From Thermococcus litoralis DSM 5473 (GTDB lineage: Archaea; Methanobacteriota_B; Thermococci; Thermococcales; Thermococcaceae): a stretch of DNA of 64,000 bases. The notes beneath the pieces were generated by a model. That model had not been told where the DNA came from. It saw only the letters and a list, made by a program, of their open reading frames with translations, and did not search any database. A program made the translations under genes and the position numbers. Positions within the stretch are counted from its first letter, which is position 1. Each line of letters starts with the position of its first letter. The stretch is taken from contig NC_022084.1 of assembly GCF_000246985.2 (NCBI RefSeq), positions 2,071,224 through 2,135,223 on the forward strand, written 5' to 3'. Positions 3,545 to 48,310 of the stretch are shown here, one piece after another.

Positions 3545-3552
3545 TTTATAAA
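3545..3552 (+). promoter_or_regulatory. TATA box of tRNA-Arg(TCT)
   Basis: TTTATAAA about 30 bases before the first base of the tRNA, the spacing expected for an archaeal TBP site. It also lies just past the end of asnS, so the tRNA has its own promoter. Confidence 0.7.
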
Positions 3553-3577: not shown

Positions 3578-3654
<77 letters not shown>

Positions 3655-3717
3655 TAAATTCTTCAGAAACATCTCTACACCATAATTCTTCCTTAAGCTC
3701 CAACCCTAAGAGTTTAT

Positions 3718-3779
3718 GGCAATGATGACCATAAGGTCTCCCCGGCTGAATATGATGAGCTGGACCCGTAACTGAGCCC
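3718..3779 (+). ncRNA. C/D box 2'-O-methylation guide sRNA
   Basis: All four boxes are present in order and correctly spaced: C box ATGATGA (3722-3728), D' box CTGA (3746-3749), C' box ATGATGA (3752-3758), D box CTGA (3772-3775). GGC at 3718-3720 can pair with GCC at 3776-3778 to close the terminal stem, and a T6 run (3781-3786) follows, fitting a terminator. The two guides are 17 nt (CCATAAGGTCTCCCCGG) and 13 nt (GCTGGACCCGTAA). By the N+5 rule, each would direct methylation of a G in a target complementary to the guide. I did not identify the target RNA. Confidence 0.85.
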
Positions 3780-3838
3780 CTTTTTTGAATAATCCTTAAG
3801 AAGGGAATAAAAACTAAAAGTTCTTGCTTACCAAGGTC

Positions 3839-4306
3839 TTAAATTTCTGCCAAAATTCTCTCTAAAATGCTAACCAGCTTTTCTGCACTTTCCTTAAGCT
3901 CCTCACTCATCTCAACAAAAAGTCCCGTCTGCTTTGGCTGGGCACCGATGAGAATGAACTTTGCGTTTATGTGTTCTTTTAGGTAGCTGACCAGAAGCTT
4001 TAAGGGCATTTTGTGAGTTGAAAAAGCCTCTCCTAGAGTTCCTTCAGGGTTCGCCAAAACTATTTCGCCTGGCTTTCCTTCGAAGTGCACCGCATCTACA
4101 AAAACCACGTGAGTGGGGTTTTCCCTTATTATCTTCCCGGCATAGCTTTCAGGCATTTCTCCGCAGTTTAAAAACACCACCTTAGGGTTTGAAACTCTTT
4201 CCTTTAGCATTTCCACAACGTAGACACCAAAAGCATCGTCTCCTCTAACGTCGTTTCCGATTCCACATACAACAACCTTTTTTGCCCCTTTAAAAAATTC
4301 CTCCAT
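3839..4306 (-). CDS. hycI: Hydrogenase maturation endopeptidase, HycI/HyaD family
   Basis: Nickel-dependent protease that trims the C-terminal tail of a [NiFe] hydrogenase large subunit once nickel is in place. The family motif GIGNDVRGDDAFG lies near residue 15, followed by FVDAVHFEGKPGE and FSTHKMPL, which carry the usual acidic and His metal ligands. About 155 aa is normal. ATG 4306 is chosen because GGTGAT at 4311-4316 precedes it. It is the last gene of the hypA-hypB-type operon, 21 bases after the ATPase, so it probably serves one of the hydrogenases encoded elsewhere in the genome. Confidence 0.9.
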   Translation of the reverse strand: MEEFFKGAKKVVVCGIGNDVRGDDAFGVYVVEMLKERVSNPKVVFLNCGEMPESYAGKIIRENPTHVVFVDAVHFEGKPGEIVLANPEGTLGEAFSTHKMPLKLLVSYLKEHINAKFILIGAQPKQTGLFVEMSEELKESAEKLVSILERILAEI

Positions 4307-4327
4307 AATTATCACCAAAAATTGAAA

Positions 4328-48199: not shown

Positions 48200-48310
48200 T
48201 CCCTAGTTAAGTTGTGTTGGCAAAGCTTAAATCTTTCGATGAGATAATGCTCCTGAACAATGAGGATACTTTGACTAACCGAGCGGTGATGACTACGGGA
48301 GTGGCCGAGC

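Follow-up and report, generated by a model that had tools for sequence, protein, structure and literature searches.

Between a tRNA-Arg gene and a convergent hydrogenase protease gene of Thermococcus litoralis lies a short intergenic stretch that an earlier note, made from the sequence alone, had read as a new box C/D guide RNA. Is it a real gene, and which RNA nucleotides would its two guides address? We analysed it in a window of 64,000 nucleotides (the whole stretch of DNA that was studied) from a genome consisting of a single contig of 2,215,172 bases. We are highly confident that positions 3718–3778 are the gene of a double-guide archaeal box C/D sRNA of about 60 nt, whose D guide most likely addresses G322 of 16S rRNA, with G2461 of 23S rRNA in second place, and whose D′ guide is selected. 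This reading is built on the anatomy of the element, its conservation, its complementarity to rRNA and a published homologue that is expressed and circular; the RNP, the methylation, the preference for 16S rRNA and the mode of transcription are what we infer.

Anatomy of the element

The features of the locus, in window coordinates, are as follows.

3578–3654 (+): tRNA-Arg(TCT), a possible co-transcript and a lineage-specific neighbour
3718–3778 (+): C/D box sRNA, homologue of T. kodakarensis Tko-sR14/sR13, with four perfect boxes, 68.3 bits with the family model, and conserved against diverged flanks
3718–3720 (+): 5′ strand of the closing stem, GGC, pairing with 3776–3778
3722–3728 (+): box C, AUGAUGA, invariant across a ten-row alignment
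3735–3745 (+): core of the D′ guide, GGUCUCCCCGG, 11 nt, N+5 at 3741 (C)
3746–3749 (+): box D′, CUGA, by direct reading
3752–3758 (+): box C′, AUGAUGA, by direct reading
3760–3769 (+): D guide, CUGGACCCGU, N+5 at 3767 (C), supported by rRNA complementarity and conservation
3772–3775 (+): box D, CUGA, by direct reading
3776–3778 (+): 3′ strand of the closing stem, GCC, by direct reading
3839–4318 (−): hycI-type hydrogenase maturation protease gene, PF01750, supported by synteny; convergent neighbour

Read along the plus strand, positions 3718–3778 consist of GGC, A, AUGAUGA, CCAUAAGGUCUCCCCGG, CUGA, AU, AUGAUGA, GCUGGACCCGUAA, CUGA and GCC. Boxes C, D′, C′ and D thus follow one another in order with k-turn spacing, as in an archaeal guide sRNA, and all four agree with the archaeal consensus of RUGAUGA and CUGA (PMC4644070). 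The four boxes and the closing stem of the earlier note were confirmed by this direct reading; the stem has 3 bp only and is retained in most homologues. The claim that both guides point to a G by the N+5 rule also holds, positions 3741 and 3767 both being C. The guides had been given as 17 and 13 bases long. These are indeed the lengths of the spacers, 17 nt from box C to box D′ (3729–3745) and 13 nt from box C′ to box D (3759–3771), but a 17-base guide is an overcount, because the 5–6 nt between box C and the 11-nt conserved D′ core vary among species. The T6 tract of the earlier note is present at 3781–3786 (+), but does not belong to the conserved part, being T5 in the relative G006 and T4 in G007.

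A strict four-box pattern matches once in the 64 kb, both strands included, and in none of 200 first-order Markov controls, and the family model, a profile of the element, finds no other match in the window. The fold energy of the element is unremarkable by itself (z −1.6). A weaker second C/D-like element (ATGAGGA...CCGA...GTGATGA...CCGA) was seen at window positions 48256–48310 (+), between two minus-strand genes; it scores 20.8 bits against Rfam sR39, below the cut-off, and the rRNA matches of its guides are weak.

Homologues, neighbourhood and transcription

The element is conserved as one unit in five relatives and in the T. kodakarensis homologue, and its D half in 41 of the 94 genomes of the family. 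Over its 61 nt the identity is 61/61 in G006 and G007, 55/61 in G001 and G010, and 52/61 in G012 (100–85%). The flanks are near-intact solely in G006, the closest relative, at 60/63 and 61/65. They retain 31/70 to 44/71 upstream and 36/66 to 47/74 downstream in the remaining four (44–64% identity), with the upper values, 44/71 and 47/74, found in G007 beside an unchanged element.

The sequence model matches genome G057 at 279803–279862 (−) with an E-value of 8e-19, a value that merely restates the alignment, G057 being among the ten sequences from which the model was built; independently of the model, the D-half pattern picked up the same homologue. Since the 16S and 23S rRNA positions of G057 fall inside the KOD1 rRNA coordinates in Table 1 of PMC9014305, the two sets of coordinates are comparable. 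That table places sR13 at 279797–279863 (67 nt) with 59,144 aligned small-RNA reads, and it further gives 47 circular reads, lost in a ligase knock-out, and the alias Tko-sR14, starting at 279865 (PMC9014305). Because the locus coincides with sR13/Tko-sR14, the G057 homologue is a real, expressed C/D sRNA; 54 such RNAs have been verified in T. kodakarensis (PMC4247193). Tko-sR14 (Jager et al. 2014, PMC4247193), identical with sR13 (Liu et al. 2022, PMC9014305), has the box order, the D core CUGGACCCGU and the D′ core GGUCUCCCCGG in common with the present element. In contrast, the genomic place differs, the T. litoralis copy adjoining tRNA-Arg and hycI.

No Rfam family reaches its cut-off for the element. 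The best-scoring matches are all C/D families below cut-off, among them sR3 (25.5 bits against a cut-off of 41, E 6.3e-5) and snoPyro_CD (22.5 bits against 45, E 0.0087), both E-values referring to a search of 201 bases. With sR3, sR1, sR14 and snoPyro_CD, all of them Pyrococcus C/D sRNAs, the element shares the general layout, whereas the matches are weak and the guides unrelated; true sR10 members, unlike the element, reach 72–82 bits in a comparable search. Pyrococcus was screened for homologues with a pattern and with the sequence model. Among the weak model matches obtained there, the four that were read at a repeated 3–43 match belong to sR10, a different family, and another is a snoPyro_CD member; these were rejected. 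L062 and L042 were likewise rejected as chance matches without boxes, and L170 (G076:C1:21284-21321) looks like a decaying copy of the sRNA, with box C changed to ATGGGGA and the D guide short of one C. In the homologue of G012 (L038 1499–1559), the D′ box reads GTAA and the C′ box ATGCTGA, so that the D′ half looks degenerate and the D half intact.

The element is hence a genuine gene of an ordinary kind, new to Rfam and with a homologue previously detected in T. kodakarensis; the word "new" in the earlier note applies to Rfam, but the family was already in the literature as Tko-sR14/sR13. Its identity as a C/D box guide RNA is strongly supported by the boxes, the stem, the selective conservation and the expressed, circularised homologue. 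The idea that ATGATGA and CTGA words came together by chance between genes, for which one might cite the shortness of the boxes and the unremarkable fold energy, is refuted for all practical purposes by the conservation and the expressed homologue, together with the empty Markov controls.

The neighbour on the other strand is, as had been proposed, a hydrogenase protease gene (HycI-type maturation protease, PF01750, E 2e-18), and the 3′ end of this convergent gene adjoins the sRNA in all six closest homologues. The tRNA-Arg gene, which had suggested shared transcription, directly precedes the sRNA (63-nt spacer) only in G000, G006 and G007, three closely related genomes. In G001 it lies about 850 nt upstream, and no tRNA was found in the stretch read near the sRNA in G010 and G012, where the protease gene is still adjacent. 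Co-transcription therefore cannot be a trait of the family, but it is possible in T. litoralis and its two nearest relatives. A TATA-like TTTATAAA is located at 3545–3552, about 29 nt upstream of tRNA-Arg, and upstream of the sRNA there is only a weak CATAATT (3681–3687); in G010, AGTATAAATTATTAA precedes the sRNA. Precedents for co-transcription, with the sRNA closely following a tRNA gene, are Tko-sR44 with tRNA-Arg (PMC4247193) and tRNA-linked sRNAs of Nanoarchaeum, Ignicoccus and Thermoproteus (reviewed in PMC7994747). The present case resembles them in arrangement and differs in the restriction of the adjacency to three genomes; against Rfam sR44 the element scores an insignificant 12.7 bits.

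In the mechanism that we propose, the RNA would be cut from a co-transcript with tRNA-Arg or be made from its own weak promoter. Its C/D and C′/D′ pairs would form a kink-turn and a kink-loop, the folded sRNA would bind L7Ae, Nop5 and fibrillarin, and target nucleotides would thereby be placed five positions from each D box for 2′-O-methylation.

Candidate targets of the D guide

Complementarity to rRNA of at least 9 bp, which the earlier note expected of a guide, was found for the D guide at two rRNA sites. CUGGACCCGU makes 10 Watson–Crick pairs with 16S rRNA at 320–329, setting N+5 on G322 (about G331 in E. coli), and 11 contiguous pairs, 10 Watson–Crick and one G–U, with 23S rRNA at 2459–2469, setting N+5 on G2461. 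Both sites contain CGGGTCCAG. A run of 10 Watson–Crick pairs was reached by 10 of 400 shuffled guides. Among the 5S, 7S and tRNA sequences of the T. litoralis genome, no target gave more than 7 Watson–Crick pairs. Covariation of guide and target could not be scored, since neither site varies: the 16S site was compared in nine genomes and the 23S site in the eight readable ones, the 23S row of G057 being disregarded for its wrong orientation.

The conserved guide itself speaks to the choice between the two sites. Of 94 Thermococcaceae genomes, 41 carry the C′-guide-D module; they belong to two genera, and the reversed-pattern control gave none. Over a run of ten guide positions (C-U-G-G-A-C-C-C-G-U), the 41 genomes differ only by two single-genome changes, a near-invariance that is partly built in, as the search pattern fixed most of those letters and allowed at most two mismatches. 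At N+3 all 41 genomes have U, which pairs with A320 of 16S rRNA and makes only a wobble with G2459 of 23S rRNA, where C would be preferable. At N+2, which the module search pattern left free, all 34 genomes of the kodakarensis group have G, which pairs with C319 of 16S rRNA and is mismatched at the 23S site. The T. litoralis guide ends in AA beside box D, rather than in GC as in Tko-sR14/sR13, and so has one pair fewer to 16S rRNA; its N+1 and N+2 are both unpaired there. The duplex energies in T. litoralis are −24.3 kcal/mol for the 23S site and −20.9 kcal/mol for the 16S site, and equal in the kodakarensis group. As judged from these pairings, the conserved positions N+2 and N+3 appear to favour 16S over 23S rRNA, and the D guide would most likely direct methylation of 16S G322, with 23S G2461 as a second possible site.

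Two other assignments have to be weighed. It is conceivable, if rather doubtful, that the guide serves G322 and G2461 alike: both sites are invariant, share CGGGTCCAG and offer at least 10 Watson–Crick pairs, yet the conserved N+2 and N+3 are explained by the 16S site only. The other concerns a hairpin. Window positions 3760–3776 (the D guide, the D box and the next base) agree at 16 of 17 positions with 23S 2442–2458, CTGGACCCGTAACAGAG, which forms the 5′ strand and loop of an H79-like hairpin. The selected target might then be 23S G2461 in this hairpin and the 16S match a coincidence, the guide imitating the 5′ strand and opening the hairpin during folding. The resemblance, the 11 contiguous pairs and the lower duplex energy in T. 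litoralis all agree with such a role; however, a likeness to the hairpin strand is expected of any guide against the opposite strand, and the U at N+3 and the G at N+2 would be a mere wobble and a mismatch there, and we consider this explanation unlikely. Methylation of 16S G322 is the assignment that we prefer.

The D′ guide and its probable exchange at one slot

The D′ half behaves differently from the fixed D half. According to the sequence of its D′ guide, the sRNA falls into the following classes among the 41 genomes.

Class A, GGUCUCCCCGG: 12 of 41 genomes
Class B, GACACCCUCGG-like: 19 of 41 genomes
Class C, UUAACCGG: 5 of 41 genomes
Class D, CCACCCUUGG: 2 of 41 genomes
Class E, without a clear C/D′ half: 2 of 41 genomes
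Other: 1 of 41 genomes (G002)

Class A spans two genera, and 11 of its 12 genomes share one D′ core; the D′ guide is under selection. Its best rRNA match lies at 16S G384, with 10 bp including one G–U, and 80 of 400 shuffled guides (20%) equal it, so that the complementarity expected by the earlier note does not stand out for this guide. Near-equal weak alternatives are 16S G1108 and 23S G1626. A scan of the rRNA antisense strands showed that matches of 9 Watson–Crick pairs to this guide arise by chance; the rRNA matches of the D′ guide are no better than chance. In a search of the whole genome, the only perfect complement of the D′ guide was the antisense strand of the gene itself.

Could the D′ half then be an orphan guide without an RNA target, kept for the geometry of the RNP? 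We regard this as a serious possibility, though we lean against it. It would fit the lack of a significant target in the 16S, 23S, 5S, 7S and tRNA sequences, the free replacement of D′ guides between species and the degenerate D′ and C′ boxes of G012. Pure geometry, however, would not demand that 11 of 12 genomes, from two genera, keep one 11-nt core, and G384, G1108 and G1626 are candidates, albeit weak ones. A selected D′ guide is the reading that we retain.

Most copies of the kodakarensis group share a location, flanked by gyaR and by a convergent DUF72 gene, and this slot holds class A (L103), class B (L085), class C (L090), class D (L089) and class E (L096). As all these classes occur in the same slot, one half of an orthologous gene has been kept and the other replaced. 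At 23S G2639 the class D guide pairs perfectly over 12 bp; the T. litoralis 23S rRNA served for the scoring, and genome G059, of class D, has the identical site. A D′ guide can thus acquire a strong target after replacement.

The Thermococcus sRNA thus probably combines a fixed D half with an exchangeable D′ half, represented by at least five unrelated D′ sequences in the gyaR/DUF72 slot. The pattern points to an in-place replacement of single halves, either through recombination or through very rapid turnover. Guide modules have been proposed to be fluid on the basis of paralogues within Methanopyrus (PMC4644070). Different from that case, which concerns mainly paralogues in one genome, the Thermococcus pattern is seen between orthologues.

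The fixed D half with exchanged D′ halves at one slot in one genus is the most interesting result of this analysis, and the slot provides about 40 natural snapshots of guide replacement. The element also adds a C/D sRNA family uncurated so far (none in Rfam at cut-off) and a predicted 16S methylation site conserved in two Thermococcus-type genera. Since T. kodakarensis is genetically tractable, the predicted site is directly testable.
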